Assembly: GCA_021816585.1 (NCBI GenBank)
Contig: JAKAXL010000001.1
Coordinates: 1 to 64,000 of the forward strand
Length of the DNA stretch: 64,000 nucleotides
Reading direction: 5' to 3'
Origin: Pseudomonadota bacterium
GTDB lineage: Bacteria; Pseudomonadota; Gammaproteobacteria; Burkholderiales; Burkholderiaceae_C
Both the position numbers and the translations under genes were made by a program. Of the stretch, positions 23,926-59,773 are shown in pieces. Within the stretch, counting starts at the first letter, position 1. Every line of letters starts with the position of its first letter. The notes under the pieces are model-generated. The model had not been told where the DNA came from, made no database searches, and was given only the letters and a program-made list of their open reading frames with translations.

Positions 23926-23941
23926 AGGCACGGTCCTTGCT
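23926..23941 (+). promoter_or_regulatory. Sigma54-type promoter for ureD
   Basis: AGGCACG-GTCC-TTGCT has the exact GG-N10-GC spacing of -24/-12 promoters and differs from the consensus TGGCACG-N4-TTGCW only at its first base. Transcription would start near 23952, before the small leader frame at 24009 and ureD at 24091. Confidence 0.65.
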
Positions 23942-24090: not shown

Positions 24091-24960
24091 ATGGGGGTGC
24101 TCGAAAGGCCCGGCGACGACGTGACCGGCGCGGGCTGGGCCTCGCGCCTGCAACTGCGCTACGAGCGAGTCGGCCCGCGCACCGTGGCGTGGCATCGCCA
24201 CGAGGGCGCCACGCGCGTGCTGGCCGCATTGCATCCGGAAGGCGACGAGCGCTGCCACCACGTGCTGGTGCACCCGCCGGGGGGCATGGCGGGCGGCGAC
24301 ACCGTGGACGTCGAGGTCGACGTGCGGGCGGGTGCCCATGCGCTGCTGACCACGCCCGGGGCGACGCGCTTTTATCGCAGCCTCGGGGCGGGCGCGGCGC
24401 AGCGCCTGCACGCGCGCGTGGCCGCCGGGGCGCGCCTGGAATGGCTGCCGCTGGAGAGCCTGGCCTTCGAGGCCTGCATCGCCGAGAACCGCTGCGTGTT
24501 CGAACTCGAGCCCGGCGCCGAGCTGCTGGCCTGGGACATGCTGGCGCTGGGCCGTCCGGCGGCCGGCGACGACTTCGCGCGCGGCAGCTTCACGCAGCAC
24601 CTGGAGATTGCCGGCGTGTGGCTGGAGCGCGGGCGCATCGACGGTGGCGACCGCGTGCTGCGCGAGGCGCCGGGCGGACTCGCCGGCGCGCAGGCGCTGG
24701 GCACCCTGCTGCTGGCCGCCGGCGAGGCGCTGACGCCGCAGCGTCGCGACGAACTGCTGGAGTCGGTGCGCGAGTTGCTGGGCGATCTCCCCGATGGCGT
24801 GCACGCCGGTGTCACATCGCCGCAGCCGCGACTGCTCGCGCTGCGCGCCACGGCCCCGCGGATCGAGCCGCTGGCCGAGCTGCTGCGCGCGGCGTGGGCC
24901 TGCCTGCGCGAACGCGCCTGGGGCCTGCCGGCCTGCGCGCCGCGCGTGTGGTCCACCTGA
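24091..24960 (+). CDS. ureD: Urease accessory protein UreD (UreH)
   Basis: 289 residues, ATG at 24091 with GGGAG 7 bases upstream. Conserved blocks: VLVHPPGGMAGGDTVDVEV, LLTTPGATRFYRS, RLEWLPLESLAFE and ELLAWDMLALGRP. UreD is the scaffold that binds apo-urease and, with UreF and UreG, allows nickel delivery and lysine carbamylation. In many bacteria it heads the ureDABC operon; here it is alone on the plus strand and ends 22 bases from the convergent ureG. It has its own sigma54-type promoter. Confidence 0.93.
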   Translation: MGVLERPGDDVTGAGWASRLQLRYERVGPRTVAWHRHEGATRVLAALHPEGDERCHHVLVHPPGGMAGGDTVDVEVDVRAGAHALLTTPGATRFYRSLGAGAAQRLHARVAAGARLEWLPLESLAFEACIAENRCVFELEPGAELLAWDMLALGRPAAGDDFARGSFTQHLEIAGVWLERGRIDGGDRVLREAPGGLAGAQALGTLLLAAGEALTPQRRDELLESVRELLGDLPDGVHAGVTSPQPRLLALRATAPRIEPLAELLRAAWACLRERAWGLPACAPRVWST

Positions 24961-26982: not shown

Positions 26983-28734
26983 TCAGAACAGGAAGTAGCG
27001 CTGCGCCATGGGCAGCGAATGCGCCGGTTCGCAGCGCAGCAGCACGCCGTCGGCGCGCACCTCGTAGGTCTGCGCGTCGACCTGCATCGCCGGCGCGTAG
27101 GCGTTGTGCACCATGTCGGACTTGCGCACCGAGCGGCAGTCGCGCACCGCGCTCAGCGCGCGCCGCAGCCCGAGGCGCGAGCCGATTCCGGACTGCAGCG
27201 CCGACTGCGAGACGAAGCTCAGCGAGGTCGCGGACAGCGCGGCGCCGAAGGCGCCGAACATGGGGCGGGCATGCACCGGCTGCGGAGTCGGGATCGACGC
27301 GTTGGGGTCTCCCATCAGGGCCGCGGCGATGAAGCCGCCCTTGAGCACCACGCTGGGCTTGATGCCGAAGAAGCCGGGGCGCCACAGCACGAGGTCGGCC
27401 CACTTGCCGGGCTGCACCGAGCCCACCTCGTGCGCGATGCCGTGCGCCAGCGCCGGATTGATGGTGTACTTGGCGACATAGCGGCGCGCCCGGAAGTTGT
27501 CGTTGCGCGAGTCGGCGCAGGCGGCGCCGAGTGCGTCGGCGTCGGGCGCGGGAGCCAGCCAGCCGCGCTGCTGCTTCATCTTGTGCGCGGTCTGCCAGGT
27601 ACGCAGGATCACCTCGCCGACCCGCCCCATGGCCTGGCTGTCGCTGGACATGATGCTGATGGCGCCGAGGTCGTGCAGGATGTCCTCGGCGGCGATGGTC
27701 TCGCGCCGGATGCGGCTCTCGGCGAAGGCCAGGTCCTCGGCGACCTGGGCGTCGAGATGGTGGCACACCATCAGCATGTCCAGGTGCTCGTCGACGGTGT
27801 TGACCGTGTAGGGGCGCGTCGGATTGGTCGACGACGGCAGCACGTTGGGCTCGCCGAGCACGCGCAGGATGTCGGGCGCATGCCCGCCTCCGGCTCCCTC
27901 GGTGTGGAAGGTGTGGATGGTGCGTCCCTTGAAGGCGGCGATCGTGTCCTCGACGAAGCCGGATTCGTTCAGCGTGTCGGTATGGATGGCCACCTGCACG
28001 TCGCCGAGCTCGGCGGCCTCCAGGCAGGTGTCGATGGCCTGCGGAGTGCTGCCCCAGTCCTCGTGCAGCTTGAGCCCGATCGCTCCGGCATCGATCTGCT
28101 CGCGCAGCGGGTCGATGCGGCTGGCGTTGCCCTTGCCGTAGAAACCCAGATTCATGGGGAAGGCCTCGGCCGCCTGCAGCATGCGCGCCAGGTTGCTCGC
28201 CCCGGGGGTGCAGGTGGTGGCGTTGGTCCCGGTGGCCGGACCGGTGCCGCCGCCCAGCATGGTGGTGACGCCGCTCATCAGCGCCTCCTCGATCTGCTGC
28301 GGACAGATGAAGTGGATGTGCGAGTCGATGGCGCCGGCGGTCAGGATCATGCCCTCGCCGGCGAGGATCTCGGTGCCGGGGCCGATGGGCAGGTCCACGC
28401 CCGGCTGCACGTCGGGGTTGCCGGCCTTGCCGATGCCGGCGATGCGCTGGCCGCGCACGCCGACGTCGGCCTTCACGATGCCCCAGTGGTCGAGGATCAA
28501 CGCGTTGGTGATCACCAGGTCCATCGCGCCTTGCGCGTGGGTGGCCTGGCCTTGCCCCATGCCGTCGCGGATGGTCTTGCCGCCGCCGAACTTGACCTCC
28601 TCGCCGTAGCCGCCGGCGCGCAGCGTGCAGTCCTGCTCGACTTCGATGAACAGCTCGGTGTCGGCCAGGCGCACGCGGTCGCCGACGGTGGGGCCGAACA
28701 TCTCCGCGTAGGCGCGACGGGTGATCGAGCTCAT
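26983..28734 (-). CDS. ureC: Urease alpha subunit
   Basis: 583 residues of the catalytic nickel amidohydrolase. Active-site features are intact: [12 protein letters not shown] (first Ni ligands), GLKLHEDWG with the carbamylated lysine, [28 protein letters not shown], the mobile-flap MVCHHLD cysteine and histidines, and [11 protein letters not shown]. The urease is therefore expected to be active. Compared with the usual 567-572 residues there is a short insertion around [18 protein letters not shown], before [10 protein letters not shown]. Its start overlaps the ureB stop by 4 bases. Confidence 0.98.
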
Positions 28735-29045
28735 GGCAGGTCTCCCATGACGCGGCCGCGAAAGCCGATGACGCGGCGCCGGCCCGCGAGGGCCACCAGC
28801 ACGACGCTGCGCTGCTGGCCCGGCTCGAAGCGCACGGCGGTGCCGCTGGCAATGTCCAGGCGCATGCCCAGCGCCGCGTCGCGGTCGAAGTCCAGCGCCG
28901 GGTTGGTCTCGGCGAAGTGGTAGTGCGAGCCGACCTGGATCGGGCGGTCGCCGCGGTTGTGCACCAGCAGCTGCAGGCGCTCGCGCGAGGGGTTGAGTTC
29001 GAGCTCGCCCGCGGCGCAGACGATTTCACCGGGAATCATCGGCAT
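28731..29045 (-). CDS. ureB: Urease beta subunit
   Basis: 104 residues, the usual size. [19 protein letters not shown] begins the family; [20 protein letters not shown] and [21 protein letters not shown] are the conserved core. UreB packs against UreC in the (alpha-beta-gamma)3 trimer. It is 10 bases downstream of ureA and overlaps ureC by 4. Confidence 0.97.
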
Positions 29046-29055
29046 CTCCTGGAGA

Positions 29056-29358
<303 letters not shown>

Positions 29359-29402
29359 GGGGGTCTCGCAGGTCGTCGCGGGCACGATTTCCCGGACAGC
29401 GT

Positions 29403-29418
29403 GGCAAGAAGCGTTCCC
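29403..29418 (-). promoter_or_regulatory. Sigma54-type promoter for ureABCEFG
   Basis: Read on the minus strand: GGGAACG-CTTC-TTGC, with GG-N10-GC spacing exact, the -12 TTGC perfect and two departures from TGGCACG in the -24 box. Predicted start near 29392, giving a 34-base leader before ureA. Confidence 0.5.
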
Positions 29419-29481
29419 GGCGCGTCGGCGCGGTGCGTCGTCGCACGGTGCCGTGCGCGCTTGCGTGCGCCGGTGCATCGA

Positions 29482-29528
29482 TGCACGAGCGAGGTGCGCA
29501 CCTGTGCGCTGTGCCCCGCCGCGGTGCG
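29482..29528. promoter_or_regulatory. Two NtrC-like enhancer sites
   Basis: TGCACG-AGCGA-GGTGCG (29482-29498) and TGCCCC-GCCGC-GGTGCG (29512-29528) each match 10 of 12 bases of the dyad TGCACC-N5-GGTGCA. Their centres are 30 bp apart, about three helical turns, so bound dimers would face the same side. They lie about 98-128 bases from the ure start and 145-175 from the urt start, normal for NtrC enhancers. Confidence 0.5.
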
Positions 29529-29559
29529 CCCGGGATCGCGCGCGATCCCCCGCACGCAC

Positions 29560-29585
29560 GCGCCCGCGCAAGCCTGCGCGGGCGC
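29560..29585. other. Perfect 11-bp hairpin in the ure-urt gap
   Basis: GCGCCCGCGCA-AGCC-TGCGCGGGCGC, followed by CTTTCATC. It lies upstream of the urtA promoter, so it is not in the urt mRNA. It could stop stray transcription from the left or bend the DNA between enhancer and promoter. Confidence 0.45.
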
Positions 29586-29638
29586 CTTTCATCGAGGCGC
29601 CAGGCCACGGCGTGCGGCGCTTGCGGCGACGTCCGAGG

Positions 29639-29654
29639 TGGCACGGGACTTGCA
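29639..29654 (+). promoter_or_regulatory. Consensus sigma54 promoter for urtABCDE
   Basis: TGGCACG-GGAC-TTGCA is a perfect match to the -24/-12 consensus TGGCACG-N4-TTGCW. Start of transcription is predicted near 29665, 42 bases before the urtA ATG. Confidence 0.85.
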
Positions 29655-29706
29655 AAACCCCGGCACAACCCGTGCTTTCCTCGACCCGCTTGAAAGGACC
29701 CGCAAC

Positions 29707-30948
29707 ATGGACCGTCGCACCGCCATCAAATCCCTCGGAGGCGCCGCCGTCGCGGCCGCCGCCGGCGGCCTGCCGTTTCCGGCCGTCGCCGCGCGCAAGT
29801 CGCCGATCAAGGTGGGCATCCTGCATTCGCTGTCGGGAACGATGGCGATCTCGGAGACCGCGCTGAAGGACGTGGACCTGATGACCATCGCCGAGATCAA
29901 CGCCGCCGGCGGAGTCGACGGGCATCCGATCGAGCCGGTGGTCGTCGACCCGGCGTCGAACTGGCCGCTGTTCGCCGAGAAGGCGCGCCAGCTGATCTCG
30001 CAGGACAAGGTGGCGGCGATCTTCGGCTGCTGGACCTCGGTGTCGCGCAAGTCGGTGCTGCCGGTGCTCGACGAGCTCAACGGGCTGCTGTTCTACCCGG
30101 TGCAGTTCGAGGGGCAGGAGCAGGACCCGCATGTGGTCTACACCGGCGCGGCGCCGAACCAGCAGGCGATTCCCGCCACCGAGTACCTGATGAGCCAGGA
30201 CGGCGGCGGCGCCAAGCGCTTCTTCCTGCTCGGCACCGACTACGTGTACCCGCGCACCACCAACGCCATCCTGCGCGGCTTCCTGCATTCCAAGGGGGTG
30301 AAGGACAGCGACATCGCCGAGGTCTACACGCCCTTCGGATTCAGCAACTACCAGAACATCGTCGCCAACATCAAGAAGTTCGCGGCGGCGGGTCCGACCT
30401 GCGTGATCTCCACCATCAACGGCGACTCCAACGTGCCCTTCTACAAGGAGCTCGGCAACCAGGGCATCAAGGCCACCGACATTCCGGTGGTCGGCTTCTC
30501 GGTGGCGGAGCAGGAACTGGCCGGGATCGACTGCCGCCCGCTGGTCGGCCAGCTGACGGCGTGGAACTACTACGAGTCGCTGCAGAACCCGCGCAACGCC
30601 CGATTCGTGAAGTCGTGGAAGTCCTGGGTGAAGTCGCGCGGCCTGAAGGACTACCCGGTCACCGACGATCCGATGGAGGCCTCGTACATCGGACTGCACA
30701 TGTGGAAACAGGCGGTGGAGAAAGCCAAGTCGACCCACACCGACGCGGTGCGCAAGGCGCTGGTCGGGCAGACCTTCGCCGCGCCCGACGGCTACACCGT
30801 CGAGGTACTCGAGAACCAGTACCTGAGCAAGCCGGTGATGATCGGGCAGGTGCGCGCCGACGGCCAGTTCGACGTGGTGTGGCGCTCCAAGGGACTGGTC
30901 CCCGGCCAGTCCTGGAGCCCCTACATCCCGAAGCCGAAGAACGCCTGA
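29707..30948 (+). CDS. urtA: Urea ABC transporter substrate-binding protein
   Basis: 413 residues from the ATG at 29707, with AAAGGA upstream. A signal peptide containing a twin-arginine-like [20 protein letters not shown] ends near AVAARKS. The mature protein is a type-I periplasmic binding fold of the amide/urea branch: [55 protein letters not shown] and [15 protein letters not shown]. It captures urea in the periplasm for UrtBCDE. First gene of a five-gene operon with a consensus sigma54 promoter, divergent from urease. Confidence 0.96.
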
Positions 30949-30965: not shown

Positions 30966-32588
30966 ATGCCGCGCCTGCCTCGTGCACTGCTCCGGGTGCT
31001 GCGCCTCGCGCTGCCGCTGCTGCTCGGGCTGCTGCCGCTGCGCGCGGCACTGGCGCTGGACACCGGCCAGGCGCTGGCGCTGTGCAGCGGCGACACCCAT
31101 GCGCGCCTGGCCGCGCTGCACGACGCGCTGCGCCACCCCGACGAGCAGCTCGCCGACTTTCTCGGCGCGCTGCTCGACAACCGGGTGCAGCTCGACGGAA
31201 CCAAGGTCGAGGTGCAGCGCGGCAGTCAGTGGTTCGAACTCGCCGGCGGGCCCGCGATCCAGCCGGGACCGCAGGCGCAGCCGGTGGTCAGCAACAACTA
31301 CCTGCGCAAGCAGTTGACCGCGGCGCGCGCCGCGCTGCAGTTGCTGTCGCCGCGCGCATCGGAGCGCCTGCAGGCGGTGCAGCGCCTCGAGGCGGACCCG
31401 GAGTCCCTGGATTCCGGGCTGGTCGAGCGCGCGTTGCGGCGCGAGACCGACCCGGCGATCCGCAAGCGCCTGCAACTGCTGGTGGCCGCGGTGCGGCTGC
31501 GCGGCGGCAGCCCGGAGCAGCGCCTGGCGGCGGCGCGCGAACTGGCTTCCAGCGACTACCCGGCGGTGCATGCGCTGCTGCTGTCGCGCCTGGGGCGCGA
31601 CGACGGCGTCTGGGTCGAACCCGATGCCGCGGTGCGCCGGCAGGTGACGCAGTCGCTGCAGGCCATCGATTCCCGGCTGGCCTGGGGACGCCGCGTGGGC
31701 ATGCTGTTCTCCGGCATCAGCCTGGGCAGCATCCTGCTGCTGGCGGCGCTGGGGCTGGCGGTGACCTACGGGCTGATGGGGGTCATCAACATGGCGCAGG
31801 GCGAGTTCATCATGCTCGGCGCCTACGCGACCTATGTCGTGCAGCGCGTGTTCGACGCCTGGCTGCCGGGGCTGCACGACTGGGCGCTGGTGGCCGCCGT
31901 GCCGTGCTCGTTCCTGCTCGCGGGCGGGGTCGGCATGCTGGCCGAGCGCACGGTGATCCGGCGCCTGTACGGCCGGCCGCTGGAGACGCTGCTGGCCACG
32001 TGGGGGATCAGCCTGCTGCTGATCCAGGGGGTGCGCAGCCTGTTCGGGCCGCAGAACGTGCAGGTCGACAGCCCGTCGTGGATGTCGGGGGGCTGGCATG
32101 TGATGGCCAACCTGATCCTTCCCTACAACCGCATGGTCATCCTGGGGTTCACCGGCGTCGTGCTGCTGGGCATGTGGCTGCTGGTGACACGCACCCGCCT
32201 CGGACTGTTCGTGCGCGCGGTGACCCAGAACCGGCCGATGGCGGCCTGCGTCGGCGTGCGCACCTCGCGCGTGGACCTGCTGGCCTTCGGGCTGGGCACC
32301 GGAATCGCCGGGCTGGCCGGCTGCGCGCTGAGCCAGGTCGGCAACGTCAGCCCGGAAATGGGGACCCAGTACATCGTCGACTGCTTCATGGTGGTGGTGC
32401 TGGGCGGCGTGGGCCAGCTCAGCGGCACCGTGGTGGCCGCGCTCGGCCTGGGCATCGTCGACACGCTGCTCGAGGGAGTCGCCGGCGCGGTGCTGGCGAA
32501 GATCGCGGTGCTGGTGGCGATCATCCTGTTCATCCAGAAGCGTCCGCAGGGCCTGTTCGCCCTGAAGGGTCGCAGCGTCGAGGGTTGA
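30966..32588 (+). CDS. urtB: Urea ABC transporter permease UrtB
   Basis: 540 residues from the ATG at 30966. A cleavable signal or first helix ([19 protein letters not shown]) precedes an extracytoplasmic domain of about 220 residues with helical repeats ([20 protein letters not shown]), as usual for UrtB. The LivH-like permease then begins near [19 protein letters not shown], with [20 protein letters not shown] and [19 protein letters not shown]. UrtB and UrtC form the membrane channel. The long N-terminal domain is a family trait and not a fusion. Confidence 0.95.
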
Positions 32589-32592
32589 ATCC

Positions 32593-33744
32593 ATGTCGCT
32601 GATTCCTGCCACCTCAGCCGGGGATTCCCGGACCGACGCTTCGGCGCGCGCGCACCTGCCCGCGTCGGGGGGCGAGGCCGGGCTGCTGCCGCGCTGGGGC
32701 TGGTGGATGCTGGGCGGCTTCGTGCTGCTGAGCTGCGTGCTGGTGCCGTGGCTGGCGCTGGGCGTGGCGCGCGGCAGCGCCTGGCACCTGCAGACCTACT
32801 GGGTGGGGCTGGCCGGCAAGATCCTGTGCTACGCGATGGTGGCGCTGGCGATGGACCTGGTGTGGGGCTACGGCGGCATCTTGTCGCTGGGCCACGGGCT
32901 GTTCTTCGCGCTCGGCGGCTACGCCATGGGCATGTACCTGAACCGTGCGATGAACGCGGCCAGCGGGACCCTGCCCGACTTCATGCAGTTCATGCAGTGG
33001 ACGCACTTCCCGTGGTACTGGGCCGGCACCGGCAACTTCGCCTATGCGCTGGCGCTGGCGCTGGCGGTGCCGGGGCTGCTGGCCTTCGTGTTCGGCTACT
33101 TCGCGTTCCGCTCGCGAATCCGCGGCGTGTACTTCTCCATCATCACGCAGGCGCTGACCTATGCCGCGATGCTGCTGTTCTTTCGCAACGAGACGGGATT
33201 CGGCGGCAACAACGGGCTCACCGACTTCAAGGTGCTGCTGGGCTGGCCGGTGGGAACGCCGGGCATGACGGTGGCGCTGTTCGTGGCCACCAGCGTGTGC
33301 CTGGTGCTGTGCTTCATGCTCCTGCGCTGGCTGGTGCAGGGGCGTTTCGGCCGGCTGCTCGGCGCCATCCGCGATGCCGAGAGCCGGGTCATGTTCTGCG
33401 GCTACGACCCGCTGTGGTTCAAGCTGTTCGCATGGACGGTGTCGGCGATGGTCTGCGGACTCGCCGGGGCGCTGTACGCGCCGCAGGTCGGGATCATCAA
33501 CCCGGGCGAGATGTCGCCCGCCAACTCCATCGAGATCGCCATCTGGACCGCGGTCGGGGGGCGCGGCACGCTGGTCGGGCCGATGCTCGGCGCGGTGCTG
33601 GTGAACGCGGCCAAGAGCTGGCTGACGGCGGCCTTTCCGCAGTTCTGGCTGTACCTGCTGGGTGCCCTGTTCGTGGTCGTGACGCTGTACGCGCCGGCGG
33701 GACTGGCGGGGCTGCTGCTGTCGTGGAGCCGGCGCCGTGGCTGA
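32593..33744 (+). CDS. urtC: Urea ABC transporter permease UrtC
   Basis: 383 residues, LivM-like permease. Membrane segments include WWMLGGFVLLSCVLVPWLAL and YGGILSLGHGLFFALGGYAMG; FGRLLGAIRDAESRVMFCGYD is the EAA-like loop that contacts the ATPases. The MNAASGTLPDFMQFMQW insertion is typical of UrtC. Four bases after urtB and an 8-base overlap with urtD point to one operon. Confidence 0.95.
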   Translation: MSLIPATSAGDSRTDASARAHLPASGGEAGLLPRWGWWMLGGFVLLSCVLVPWLALGVARGSAWHLQTYWVGLAGKILCYAMVALAMDLVWGYGGILSLGHGLFFALGGYAMGMYLNRAMNAASGTLPDFMQFMQWTHFPWYWAGTGNFAYALALALAVPGLLAFVFGYFAFRSRIRGVYFSIITQALTYAAMLLFFRNETGFGGNNGLTDFKVLLGWPVGTPGMTVALFVATSVCLVLCFMLLRWLVQGRFGRLLGAIRDAESRVMFCGYDPLWFKLFAWTVSAMVCGLAGALYAPQVGIINPGEMSPANSIEIAIWTAVGGRGTLVGPMLGAVLVNAAKSWLTAAFPQFWLYLLGALFVVVTLYAPAGLAGLLLSWSRRRG

Positions 33745-34579
33745 CGTGGACTGGCGCGACATCGTGTTCCGGCAGGCGCCGCAGTCCGGCGAGGCCACCG
33801 CCGGGCTGGCGCGCATGCGCCCCGAGGGCGTCGACCTGAGCCACGGCGTCGCGCTGTACCTGGACGAGATCAGCGTGAGCTTCGACGGATTCCGCGCGCT
33901 CGACCGGCTGAGCCTGTCGATCGATGCCGGGGAGTTGCGCTGCGTGATCGGGCCCAACGGGGCCGGCAAGACGACGATGATGGACGTGATCACCGGCAAG
34001 ACCCGTCCGGACAGCGGGCAGGCCTGGTTCGGCCAGACCATCGACCTGCTGCGACTGCGCGAACCCGAGGTGGTGGCCGCGGGGATCGGGCGCAAGTTCC
34101 AGAAGCCCACGGTGTTCGAGAACCTCGAGGTGCGCCACAACCTGGAGCTGGCGATGAAGGAGCCCAAGCGCGTGCGCGACGCCTTGCACTCGCGCCCGGG
34201 GCCGCGGCAGATCGAGCGCATGCACGAGGTGCTGCACATCATCGGACTGTCCGAGCAGGCGCGGCGGCGCGCCGGCGAGCTGTCCCACGGCCAGAAGCAG
34301 TGGCTGGAGATCGGCATGCTGCTGATGCTCGAGCCGCAGTTGCTGCTGCTCGACGAACCGGTGGCCGGAATGACCGACGCCGAGACCGAACGCACCGCCG
34401 AGCTGCTGCTGTCGCTGGCCGGCACGCACACGCTGATGGTGGTCGAGCACGACATGGAGTTCGTGCGCGCGATCGCGCAGCGCGTGACCGTGCTGCACGA
34501 AGGCCGCGTGCTGGCCGAGGGCAGCCTGCAGCAGGTGCAGGCGGACGAGCGCGTCGTCGAGGTCTACCTGGGGCGCTGA
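33737..34579 (+). CDS. urtD: Urea ABC transporter ATP-binding protein UrtD
   Basis: 280 residues from a GTG at 33737 that overlaps the urtC stop by 8 bases. LivG-type ATPase with Walker A GPNGAGKTTMMDVIT, the signature ELSHGQKQWLEIGMLL and Walker B LLLLDEPVAGMTDAE, then an H-loop VVEHDMEFVR. The first 40 residues form an N-terminal extension seen in UrtD. It powers urea import with UrtE. Confidence 0.95.
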   Translation: MADVDWRDIVFRQAPQSGEATAGLARMRPEGVDLSHGVALYLDEISVSFDGFRALDRLSLSIDAGELRCVIGPNGAGKTTMMDVITGKTRPDSGQAWFGQTIDLLRLREPEVVAAGIGRKFQKPTVFENLEVRHNLELAMKEPKRVRDALHSRPGPRQIERMHEVLHIIGLSEQARRRAGELSHGQKQWLEIGMLLMLEPQLLLLDEPVAGMTDAETERTAELLLSLAGTHTLMVVEHDMEFVRAIAQRVTVLHEGRVLAEGSLQQVQADERVVEVYLGR

Positions 34580-34612
34580 GGCCCCGGGGCCGTCACCCGC
34601 CGAGGAGCGAAC

Positions 34613-35305
34613 ATGCTGGACATCCGGGCCATCGACCAGTACTACGGCGGCAGCCACATCCTGCGCGGACTGAGCCTGAGCGTGCAGCGCGGCCGCGTGC
34701 TGGCGCTGCTCGGGCGCAACGGCGTGGGCAAGACCACGCTGCTGAAGTCGCTGATGGGCCTGGTGCCGATCCGCCGCGGCAGCATCGAGCTCGACGGCCG
34801 GCGCATCGACGGCCTGGCGCCGGACGCGCGCGCGCGCCTGGGTATCGGCTACGTGCCGCAGGGGCGCGAGATCTTCGCGCGCCTGAGCGTGCTCGACAAC
34901 CTGCGCATGGGGCTGGCCGGGCTGCCCGGGCGCCCGCAGGTTCCGCCCGAGCTGTTCGAGTTGTTCCCGGTGCTGCGGCAGATGCTGGGGCGCCGCGGCG
35001 GCGACCTGTCCGGCGGCCAGCAGCAGCAGCTGGCGATCGCCCGCGCACTCGCGGCGAGTCCCAGGCTGCTGGTGCTCGACGAGCCCACCGAGGGCATCCA
35101 GCCGTCGATCATCAAGGACATCGAACGCGTGATCCGGCTGCTCGCCGCACGCGGCGACATGGCGATCCTGCTGGTCGAGCAGTACTACGACTTCGCGCGT
35201 GCGCTGGCCGACGACTATTGCGTCATGTCGCGCGGCGAGATCGTGCTCGCCGGGCGCGGCGCCGACATGCAGGCCGACGGCGTGCGCGAGCTGATCGCGG
35301 TGTAG
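34613..35305 (+). CDS. urtE: Urea ABC transporter ATP-binding protein UrtE
   Basis: 230 residues, ATG at 34613 after GAGGAG. LivF-type ATPase with Walker A GRNGVGKTTLLKSLM, signature LSGGQQQQLAIARALA and Walker B LLVLDEPTEGIQPS. QYYGGSHILRGLSL is the UrtE N-terminal hallmark. Last gene of the urt operon; the following 43 bases separate it from the convergent regulator gene. Confidence 0.95.
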   Translation: MLDIRAIDQYYGGSHILRGLSLSVQRGRVLALLGRNGVGKTTLLKSLMGLVPIRRGSIELDGRRIDGLAPDARARLGIGYVPQGREIFARLSVLDNLRMGLAGLPGRPQVPPELFELFPVLRQMLGRRGGDLSGGQQQQLAIARALAASPRLLVLDEPTEGIQPSIIKDIERVIRLLAARGDMAILLVEQYYDFARALADDYCVMSRGEIVLAGRGADMQADGVRELIAV

Positions 35306-35348: not shown

Positions 35349-36521
35349 TCAGGCGTCGCCGCGCGGCTTGCGTCCGGCTCGCGAATCCTGCGACTGCGGC
35401 GACTGCGCCAGCTTGCGGTAGACGGTGGCGCGACTGAGTCCGAGCGCGCGAGCCGCCTCGGCCACGTTGCCGCGCGCCGCGTCCACCGCCTGGCGAACCA
35501 GCGCCTGCTCGAGCTGCTGCAGCGACATGCGGCTGCGCGCCGACGCCAGCGGCATGCGTGTGTCGCTGCCGGCTCGCCGAGCGCGCAATTGCACCAGCAG
35601 TCCCGACCACAACGGGACCTCCATCGGGCCGGTGTCGAGCAGTTCGCAGGCGCGGGCATGCTCGAACAGGCGTTGCGGCGCCAGCGCGAACACCTCGCCG
35701 GCATGCACCGCCGAGCCGACGCTGGCCAGCTGGGGCACCAGCGCGCGCGCGGCGGCGTTGGCGCCGCGGATCCAGGCGTCGGCATCCAGGCAGACGATGG
35801 CGTCGGATTCGCCGCCGAGCTCGTGGCCGGGCCAGTTCATGCGCAGCGCCAGCGCGTGCGGGCGCGCCAGCACCAGCGCGTTCTCGATACGCCGCGCCGC
35901 CTGCGCGGCCAGGTCGGTGAGTTCGGGGCGTTCGACGGCCTCCACGCCGGTGAGGTCGAGCATGCCGATGCAGCGCCCGTCGGGGTCGAACAGCGGCGCG
36001 CCGGCGCAGCTGTACACCGAGGTGTCGCGGTAGAAATGCTCGCCGCGGTGCAGCCACACCGGGTGCAGTTCGCTGAGCGCGGCGCCGATCGCGCTGGTGC
36101 CGATGCTGGCCTCCGAGAGGTCGACGCCGACCCGCGCGATCGCGCGCACGCGCCGGTCGCGGTGATCTGCGGCGCCGCGCACGTCGATGACCATGCCGTG
36201 CGCGTCGGTGAGGATGGCGAAGTAGCGGGTGCGCGCGATGGCCCGCGCCAGCTCGTCGAGCAGCGGCGACGCGACGCCGAGCAGCTGGTGATGCAGCTCC
36301 TCGCTGGCGCGCCTGGCGCCGGGCGGCACGCTGTCGAACTCGACGCGCTCGTCGGGGCGCCGGCCGCGCTGCAGGCAGCGCCGCCACGAACGCTCGATCC
36401 ATTCGCGCTGCGCTCCCAGCACCTGCTGCGGCAGCTCGCGGCCTTCGCCGATCACCAGCTGCCGCGCCTGGGCGATGCTGCGCAGGCGGCTGTCGGCGGG
36501 AAGGGCGGGGGCGACGTGCAT
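35349..36521 (-). CDS. GAF/Fis-type regulator lacking the AAA+ sigma54 domain
   Basis: 390 residues. The N-terminal half is like AcoR-family regulators (SWRRCLQRGR, then a GAF domain with SIGTSAIGAALSELHPVW and GAPLFDPDGRCIGMLDLTG). A PAS-like segment follows (IVCLDADAWIRGANAAA), and the protein ends in a Fis-type helix-turn-helix, GNVAEAARALGLSRATVYRKL. There is no Walker A, no GAFTGA and no room for an AAA+ domain, so it cannot drive sigma54 open-complex formation. It diverges from the molybdenum hydroxylase genes and is probably their regulator. The ligand is unknown. Confidence 0.8.
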   Translation of the reverse strand: MHVAPALPADSRLRSIAQARQLVIGEGRELPQQVLGAQREWIERSWRRCLQRGRRPDERVEFDSVPPGARRASEELHHQLLGVASPLLDELARAIARTRYFAILTDAHGMVIDVRGAADHRDRRVRAIARVGVDLSEASIGTSAIGAALSELHPVWLHRGEHFYRDTSVYSCAGAPLFDPDGRCIGMLDLTGVEAVERPELTDLAAQAARRIENALVLARPHALALRMNWPGHELGGESDAIVCLDADAWIRGANAAARALVPQLASVGSAVHAGEVFALAPQRLFEHARACELLDTGPMEVPLWSGLLVQLRARRAGSDTRMPLASARSRMSLQQLEQALVRQAVDAARGNVAEAARALGLSRATVYRKLAQSPQSQDSRAGRKPRGDA

Positions 36522-57640: not shown

Positions 57641-59641
57641 TCAGTCGCGGCCCGGCGCGGCGCGTCGGTACAGCGTGCTGCGGTGCACCCCGAGCATGCG
57701 CGCGGCGCGGCTGATGTTGCCGTCGCAGGCCTGCAGCGCGGCCCGCACCGCGGCCTCGGTCAGGCTGCGCAGGTCGGTGTTCGCGCCGGACCCGGCCAGC
57801 GAGCCCGGGCCGTTGCCGGCGGCGCTGCCTGCCGCGGCGTCGCGCGCGCGCCGCAGGCAGTCGCGCACCGAGGCCGGCAGGTCGGCCAGGTCGAGGCAGC
57901 GCCCCGGCTCCCCCAGCGCGCGCAGGGTGCGGCACACGCCGACCAGTTCGCGCCAGTTGCCGGGCCATGCGCAGCCGAGCATGGCCTCGCGGGCCTGCGC
58001 GCTCAGGCGCAGGCCGTGGCGCCCGAGCATCACGTGCAGCAATTCGTCGATGCGCTCGCGCCGATCGGGCAGCTCGCGCAGCGCCGGCAGCTCCACCGTG
58101 AAGTGCTGCAGGCGGTAGTACAGGTCGGCGCGGAATCGTCCCTCGGCGACCAGCTCGGACAGCTTGCGGTGGGTCGCGCATACCAGCGCGAAGTCCACCG
58201 CCTGGGCCTGGCCGCCGCCCAGCGGGCGCACCTCGCGGTCCTGCAGCACGCGCAGCAGGCGCGACTGCAGCAGCAGCGGCATGTCGCCGATCTCGTCGAG
58301 GAACAGCACGCCGCCGTCGGCCTCGCGCACCAGCCCCGCCTGGCCGCGGCGTCGCGCCCCGGTGAAGGCGCCGGCCTCGTAGCCGAACAGTTCGGACTCG
58401 ATCAGCGACTCCGGCACCGCGGCGCAGTTGACCGCGACGAAGGGCCCCGCGGCGCGCGCGCTGGCGCGGTGCAGCTGGCGCGCGAACACTTCCTTGCCGA
58501 CCCCGGACTCGCCGCTGATCAGCACCGGGATCTCCGCGTCGAGCACGCGCAGCGCGCGCTGCAGCTGGTGCTGGCGCAGCGGGTCGTCGATCAGTGGCGC
58601 GTCGTCGGCCGGGGTGGATGCCGGGCGCGGGGCCGCCGTGTCCTCCGGCACGACCTGCGCCGCATGCGAGGACTGCGACGCGAAGCGCCTGCCGCGCACC
58701 CAGCTCGCCTGCCAGACCGCCAGGCGCCCGGGTTGCATCAGGTGCGGCTGCAACTGCAGGCTCGACGCCGCCGCGTCGCCGGGCGGAAGCGTGGTGAACA
58801 GATCCTCCACGTAGCGCTCGTAGAGCTGCTCGAAGCGCATGCCCAGCACGCGCAGCGCGGCGCGGTTGGCGCCCACGACCACGCCGCCGCGCACCCACAG
58901 CAGCGCCTCGCGGTGGGTGCCGATCAGCGCCGGGTCGCGCGCGAAGCGCAGGATCTCGGTGTCGGCCGGCCAGGTGTCGAGGGCCAGCCGGTGCTCGATC
59001 ATCTGCCCGGCCATGCGCACCAGCGACGAGGTCTGCGCCTGGATGCAGCGCGGGTCGCCCGACACGTCGAGCACGCCCATGACGTGGCCGTTGGGCGCCA
59101 GCAGCGGGGTCGCGGTGCAGCCGAGGGCGCTGTTCTGCTCCAGGTAGTGCTGCAGTCCGAGCACCGTCACCGGGGAGGCGTCGGTCAGCGCGGTGCCGAT
59201 GGCGTTGGTGCCGCGGCTGCCCTCGGACCAGTCGACGCCGGGCATCAGCGCGACGCGCTGCGCCTTGGTCATGAAGGCGTCGGATCCGGCCGCGTCGAGG
59301 ATCATGCCCTCCGGGTCGGCCAGCAGCACGATCACGCGCGACGGCACCAGCGCCTCGGCCAGCGCCTCGAGTTCGGGCAGCGCGTGGTGGCGCAGCCGCC
59401 CCTGCGCATCGCGCCGCGAGAACAGCTCCTCGCTGGGCAGCGGCTCCGGGCGCGGCAGGCTGCGCGCCGGCAGGGTCGAGCAGCGCCGCCAGGAGCGGGC
59501 GATGGACTCCGGCACCAGCACTCCGGGGTCGGAGCCTTCGTCGAAAAAGCGTCGGCGCGCCAGATGCAGCTGCTGCGTCGGCGGGGTCTGGGCGAGGGCC
59601 GCGGAGCTGGCGGCGGCGCCGCCCGGGCGAAGGTCTTGCAT
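57641..59641 (-). CDS. Sigma54-dependent activator of the AcoR family
   Basis: 666 residues from the ATG at 59641 with GGGAG upstream. Domains: SWRRC motif and GAF ([17 protein letters not shown]), PAS-like region with [20 protein letters not shown]+ with Walker A GESGVGKE (377-384), the sigma54-contact loop GAFTGA (424-429) and [19 protein letters not shown], then a Fis-type helix-turn-helix [20 protein letters not shown]. AcoR-like proteins activate genes for acetoin, alcohols or related carbon sources. No obvious target operon is next to it; the target may lie elsewhere. A symmetric site 81 bases upstream may be its own operator. Confidence 0.92.
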
Positions 59642-59721
59642 GCTTGTCTCCCTGCCCGCCGTGGCATCCCGGCGGGTTCGTTCGAGGGCCCAGTTTCGCA
59701 CCCGTGTCAAGGCTTGTCGAC

Positions 59722-59738
59722 TGTCGCAAGCTGCGACA
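59722..59738. promoter_or_regulatory. 17-bp palindrome upstream of the AcoR-like gene
   Basis: TGTCGCA-AGC-TGCGACA has perfect 7-base arms. Symmetry and size suit an upstream activating site for a Fis-type helix-turn-helix dimer, so it may serve autoregulation, but MarR (divergent) is also nearby. Confidence 0.45.
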
Positions 59739-59773
59739 TGCGGCGGGCGCATCAAATAACCCCACAAAATATA

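Follow-up and report, generated by a model that had tools for sequence, protein, structure and literature searches.

The 348-base gap between the divergent ureA and urtA genes of a Thiomonas-related bacterium is likely a two-way NtrC/sigma54 control region, which would govern both the ure and the urt operons. This reading is favoured because the signals are conserved in the genus, because matching double sites precede glnA and a porin-glnK-amtB gene set, and because ntrC and rpoN mutants of other Burkholderiales, the order of Thiomonas, have been published. The gap lies in a window (the whole stretch of DNA analysed, 64,000 nucleotides) with a G+C content of 72%, which belongs to a draft genome assembled into 131 contigs (3.4 Mb in all). 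The encoded UrtA is 93% identical to its homologue in Thiomonas sp. FB-6.

The gap runs from the ureA start at 29358 on the minus strand to the urtA start at 29707 on the plus strand. To the left, on the minus strand, ureA (urease gamma subunit, 29056..29358; PF00547, 156.3 bits, with NF009712 and TIGR00193 over cut-off) is followed by ureB (beta subunit, 28731..29045; PF00699, 148.1 bits) and ureC (alpha subunit, 26983..28734; TIGR01792, 922.9 bits for a cut-off of 680). To the right, on the plus strand, urtA (substrate-binding protein of a urea ABC transporter, 29707..30948; TIGR03407, 541.5 bits for a cut-off of 492.75) leads the four genes urtB, urtC, urtD and urtE, which stand in succession at 31002..35305 (the urtB start is approximate) and match TIGR03409, TIGR03408, TIGR03411 and TIGR03410, each over cut-off. 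The accessory gene ureD (24091..24960, plus strand; PF01774, 170.6 bits, and no NCBIfam match at 0.001) is on the strand opposite to ureABC and faces them. An Rfam match to 5_ureB_sRNA (102.3 bits, cut-off 40) was also found at 28284-28573 on the plus strand, antisense to ureC; it may be a mere echo of the conserved ureC coding sequence and not an antisense RNA.

The frame of a sigma54 promoter is TGGCAC-N5-TTGC, with the GG and GC doublets at fixed spacing. Both doublets are exactly spaced before urtA and before ureA, where the sites score 16/16 and 13/16 on a 16-point scale weighted by the consensus. The urtA element TGGCACGGGACTTGCA (29639..29654, plus strand; predicted start about 29665) is the sole 16/16 site in the window, of which Markov sequences yield 0.03 per window, and the preliminary description was right to call it perfect. 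Genome-wide, the frame has 16 matches versus 4 for the reversed control, so that the match by itself is strong but not unique. The ureA element GGGAACGCTTCTTGCC (29403..29418, minus strand; predicted start about 29392) does not exceed chance on its own sequence; the window holds 69 sites scoring at least 13 versus 54.5 expected, and the probability of such an element in the gap is P = 0.185. Both predicted starts are arithmetic from the -12 elements. It was found that the motif GG.A[CT].{5}TTGC is present in all 21 complete ureA-urtA gaps (the own gap and those of 20 relatives) versus 1.4% of 2100 shuffles. Thus, the slightly weaker but exactly spaced element that had been proposed for ureA is accepted on its conservation across the genus.

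Two NtrC-like sites lie between these elements. The NtrC box is described in a passage of PMC8743547 as TGCACCAnnnTGGTGCA, and paired upstream sites of this type, as in an NtrC regulon, are present at 29483 and 29513. Site 1 (GCACGAGCGAGGTGC, 29483..29497) is a perfect GCAC-N7-GTGC, while site 2 (GCCCCGCCGCGGTGC, 29513..29527) has one mismatch in the GCAC/GTGC arms; neither has a strand, and they score 10.7 and 8.1 bits by a matrix derived from 21 double sites, none of them from a ure/urt gap. Relative to the predicted ureA and urtA starts, the centre of site 1 is at -98 and -175 and that of site 2, 30 bp away, at -128 and -145, respectively. The counts from the own sequence are weak: P is 0.039 for one perfect site and 0.17 for the two sites with at most one mismatch that the gap contains, the best matrix score of the gap is equalled by 5.5% of shuffles (P 0.055), and six perfect GCAC-N7-GTGC sites occur across the window. 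As a further candidate, the perfect palindrome GTGCATCGATGCAC (29473-29486) was rejected as an NtrC site, since its half-sites are wrongly oriented for NtrC; it is present only in the own region and in locus L125 among 22 genus regions. A scan of the gap with sigma70-type consensus sequences gave no promoter or terminator, almost none being expected in such G+C-rich DNA, and Rfam gave no riboswitch or other RNA-family match there.

Are these signals conserved in the genus? I searched 60 relatives, 27 of which belong to the same genus. A urtA gene at least 86% identical was found in 21 of the 27, one of them truncated by a contig end, and in 20 of the 21 ureA is divergent from urtA, with the start codons 246-391 bases apart. 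Locus L099 (genome G005), whose contig ends 132 bases upstream of urtA, was excluded, and the counts of 21 full regions thus comprise the own region and 20 relatives; L018, L019 and L020, which duplicate L100, L105 and L106, were left uncounted. The regions were grouped by UrtA identity into nearer genomes (at least 93%, plus the partial L125) and farther genomes (86-90%). The alignment of the gaps has 38 invariant columns in all. The interval 29361-29696 has 21 of these: 10 in the ureA element, nine in the urtA element and two in site 2. Those outside this interval lie at the two gene starts, apart from one base at 29697. The urtA element scores 15-16 in all 21 regions. The DNA between the two elements has a mean identity of 60% when the 11 nearer genomes are compared with one another and 43% when they are compared with the 10 farther ones.

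The NtrC-like sites are conserved at a shorter range. A perfect site is found at the place of site 1 in all 11 nearer genomes, and the 30-bp pair, whose spacing the preliminary description had pointed out, is kept in 11/11 of them versus none of the 10 farther genomes (L109-L118) and 0.14% of shuffles. In eight of the 11 nearer genomes, the own one not among them, an additional one-mismatch site is located on the ureA side of site 1, at a distance of 46 bp. By the matrix, the farther genomes have single or differently placed sites; nine of the 10 have one at -84 or -85 from the predicted ureA start, four of these scoring below 4 bits.

The same arrangement of double sites recurs at nitrogen genes elsewhere in the genome. 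The double-site pattern was found at three distinct places (the ure/urt gap, before glnA and before porin-glnK-amtB), the reversed control giving one, and 28 genus genomes together gave 95 matches versus 22 for the reversed control, pairs of two perfect sites being counted on both strands. The glnA gene (MSKQVADVL..., by eye) has two GCAC-N7-GTGC sites 29 bp apart, with centres about 127 and 156 bases (by arithmetic) before the 14/16 -24/-12 element TGGCATGGTTTCTGCT. At the third place, paired sites and the element TGGCACGAAAGCTGCG stand upstream of a porin-like gene, a PII-like gene (both by eye) and a gene for an Amt protein over cut-off. This layout, in which porin-like, PII-like and amtB genes follow paired NtrC-like sites and a sigma54 element of 14/16 at about 49640-52742 of contig C46 (genome G000; L149 and L151), suggests that an outer-membrane channel may be part of the nitrogen-starvation response. 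In the farther genomes G010 and G013, a match lies between the gene for a regulator of the ANTAR type and one that, by eye, encodes an ABC binding protein of the nitrate type.

The machinery is encoded in the genome. RpoN has one match (414.2 bits, over cut-off), and a single protein exceeds the NtrC equivalog cut-off (TIGR01818, 683.6 bits including a second piece, versus 558.6). Its receiver domain and AAA+ region match solved chains of the NtrC family, and its translation shows a GAFTGA loop and a C-terminal HTH. The same model search gave 12 further matches above 250 bits. One of these (57662-58642) is within a minus-strand frame of the window, 57641-59767, for a 708-residue sigma54-activator-like protein that is AcoR-like by eye and has the GAFTGA sequence.

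Outside the genus, a sigma54-like element before urtA is general in the examined groups, while a near divergent ureA with an element of its own was, within the set of loci examined, confined to this genus. I scanned 400 bases upstream of urtA (less on short contigs), taking controls from the same loci; 67 of the 77 named non-genus regions score at least 14, versus 6.3% of 760 control stretches. The 10 misses are eight Enterobacterales, Chitinasiproducens (L023) and L084. Thus, eight of nine enterobacterial urtA loci have no element of at least 14 within 400 bases upstream, the ninth (L097) scoring 14.5 at -341. The perfect GCAC-N7-GTGC is present in only 11 of the 77 regions, versus 2.6% of controls, and NtrC action at the urtA genes of the farther genomes and of the non-genus loci is less certain from sequence. 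Of the 77 loci, 31 contain ureA in whole or in part, and in 30 of these it lies downstream of urtA in the same direction. In the one divergent case, L084, a metagenome-assembled genome labelled Myxococcaceae, ureA is 1336 bases from urtA, with a UreD-like frame between them (by eye). Eight loci from the family or order (L119-L124, L126 and L127) lack a ureA within 1.5 kb upstream of urtA. A general sigma54 element of ureA or ureD was considered and rejected; elements of at least 14 precede seven of 31 non-genus ureA genes and one of 48 ureD genes (controls 6.3%). Two Burkholderia loci, L063 and L081, have a 16/16 element 131 bases before ureA as well as a 15/16 element before urtA, which may represent a second promoter inside the co-directional cluster.

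The ureD gene probably carries a third sigma54 element, which the preliminary description did not mention. The putative element AGGCACGGTCCTTGCT (23926..23941, plus strand) scores 15/16 and is one of three window sites scoring at least 15, where 0.65 are expected per 64 kb of plus strand. Its conservation is mixed. Including the own locus, eight of 11 loci have a site of at least 14 within 1 kb upstream of ureD, five of them directly behind a ligase gene; the sites of L129, L130 and L133 score 13, and L128, which has an additional reading frame between the ligase gene and ureD, has no element at that place. An NtrC site near ureD was sought, and no site with at most one mismatch was found within 1 kb upstream of the gene in the window. 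Genome G005 has a different ureD (L147, 59.5% identical) beside urtE, toward which it points; a 14/16 element of its own stands 120 bases before it.

A tie of NtrC and RpoN to both gene sets is known from other Burkholderiales. According to a passage of PMC5491218, an ntrC mutant of Burkholderia cenocepacia H111 has lowered ure and urt expression and does not grow on urea, and nitrate and urea use by Paraburkholderia phymatum is stated in part of PMC5748707 to be under RpoN control. In these two species ntrC or rpoN is needed for urea use, and the genes are the same as here. In Herbaspirillum seropedicae, which also has these genes, a sigma54 promoter was noted before urtA (in a passage of PMC3093359), but urt lies upstream of ure there, whereas the two are divergent here. 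A comparative study lists urt and ureABC among the NtrC targets of four other orders, in a passage that does not mention betaproteobacteria for these genes (PMC5343134). What distinguishes the present locus from the known Burkholderiales systems is that ure and urt diverge from a short gap with one sigma54 element for each, and that ureD has a probable third one. It looks like a common type of nitrogen control with an uncommon gene arrangement, the back-to-back order being seemingly particular to the genus. Among the literature matches listed (titles and abstract starts, mostly of non-subscription literature, with 'ureA' also matching 'urea'), none describes a divergent urtA/ureA layout with NtrC, and the matches for Thiomonas and NtrC concern other subjects, judged by title or abstract start.

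Paired NtrC sites are also a feature of glnAp2, the glnA promoter of E. coli. At glnA the pair serves one promoter, whereas the pair in the ure/urt gap is flanked by two promoters and has a mismatch in site 2. Diverging units under sigma54 have been described for other genes, namely nifF/nifLA of Klebsiella, orp1/orp2 of Desulfovibrio and sgrR/sgrST of E. coli. They differ from the present case in their genes; moreover, IHF sites lie between the orp promoters, and the activator at nif promoters is NifA.

From established NtrC biology I infer phosphorylation, binding, looping and the transcription starts as follows. Under nitrogen shortage, NtrB would phosphorylate NtrC, which would bind at 29483-29497 and 29513-29527 and assemble a higher-order complex. 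By looping of the DNA, the AAA+ ATPase of NtrC would open sigma54-RNA polymerase at urtA (about 29665) and at ureA (about 29392). It is likely that urtABCDE and the minus-strand urease genes would then rise jointly, in one regulon with glnA and porin-glnK-amtB. The geometry suggests, as the simplest reading, that one enhancer pair may serve both promoters, and this is economical because the nearer genomes conserve a single pair.

The published observations on Thiomonas sp. CB2 do not fit a switch that answers purely to nitrogen limitation. This strain has a urea island containing ure and urt genes; urea was degraded only by cells that had grown with urea (0.02 M), and the medium contained NH4Cl at 0.3 (apparently per litre). 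The authors propose urea induction and acid tolerance (PMC4585258). The words promoter, NtrC, sigma54 and divergent each have 0 occurrences in the main text of that paper. Urease was also mentioned in connection with acid tolerance for Thiomonas sp. 3As, in part of PMC2829063. In the preliminary description, the divergent promoters appeared to be a shared nitrogen-limitation switch, and sigma54/NtrC control of urea use was cited as known in enteric bacteria. Two-way NtrC/sigma54 control stands on the conservation, the double sites of glnA and porin-glnK-amtB, and the Burkholderiales mutants; a switch answering to nitrogen limitation and nothing else agrees poorly with strain CB2. The enteric precedent is doubtful. 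Eight of the nine enterobacterial urtA loci examined have no element of at least 14 within 400 bases upstream, and the ure operon of Klebsiella pneumoniae is transcribed from a NAC-dependent and a NAC-independent promoter (a passage of PMC3415461), although putative NtrC-dependent urea operons have been proposed for Klebsiella oxytoca (a passage of PMC8381380).

Other explanations were weighed against shared control. Both promoters might depend on sigma54 and NtrC but not share the enhancer, each having its own site or sites, or one of them using NtrC from solution or through weaker sites. The differently placed sites of the farther genomes, some of them near the ureA promoter, point this way, as do the additional one-mismatch site at 46 bp in most nearer genomes and the lack of an NtrC-like site in the 1 kb of window DNA upstream of the ureD element. 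However, just one pair is common to all 11 nearer genomes; its distance from the two predicted starts is 98-175 bases in the own gap. This makes unshared enhancers unlikely. It is less probable still that urea or acid induces the genes by way of a different regulator, the sigma54 signals being minor or needing some other enhancer-binding protein. Such induction would suit the urea-dependent degradation by strain CB2 in an ammonium-containing medium and the acid-tolerance role proposed for it (both from passages of PMC4585258), and also the 12 further NtrC-model matches above 250 bits, one of them in the window frame 57641-59767. Against it are the paired sites of the type that precedes glnA and porin-glnK-amtB, the loss of ure and urt expression in ntrC mutants of another Burkholderiales member (a passage of PMC5491218), the absence of an RNA-family match in the gap, and the empty sigma70-type scan, though almost nothing was to be expected from that scan in such G+C-rich DNA.

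The ureA-side element might finally be a chance match, urease being expressed from another promoter and sigma54 dependence being limited to urtA. The 13/16 score is indeed within chance for a single sequence, but the recurrence of the motif in 21/21 regions versus 1.4% of shuffles, and the 10 element columns that are invariant amid otherwise diverged DNA, make this very improbable.

A tentative evolutionary reading is slightly more apt to fail than to hold. The urea cluster may have been split in the genus ancestor, and new sigma54 promoters may then have kept the transporter, the urease and the detached ureD in one NtrC regulon, with one enhancer pair driving two opposed promoters in turn. 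If this is true, the urea genes of the genus would be set up to scavenge nitrogen, with the acid protection reported for Thiomonas sp. CB2 as a side effect. Were the genes under NtrC control, the timing of urease production should depend on ammonium and not on acidity. The published idea of a Thiomonas urea island for acid tolerance and metal precipitation is now directly testable, and control of urease by ammonium would be relevant to the addition of urea to mine drainage. The 21 genomes are a natural set for studying the gain of sigma54 promoters upon the splitting of a gene cluster.

I also found a minus-strand gene at 35349-36521 whose product has GAF and Fis-type HTH domains and no AAA+ match in Pfam, thereby resembling a sigma54 activator minus its motor. 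The gene sits between urtE and a molybdenum-hydroxylase-like gene cluster (the cluster being assigned by eye).
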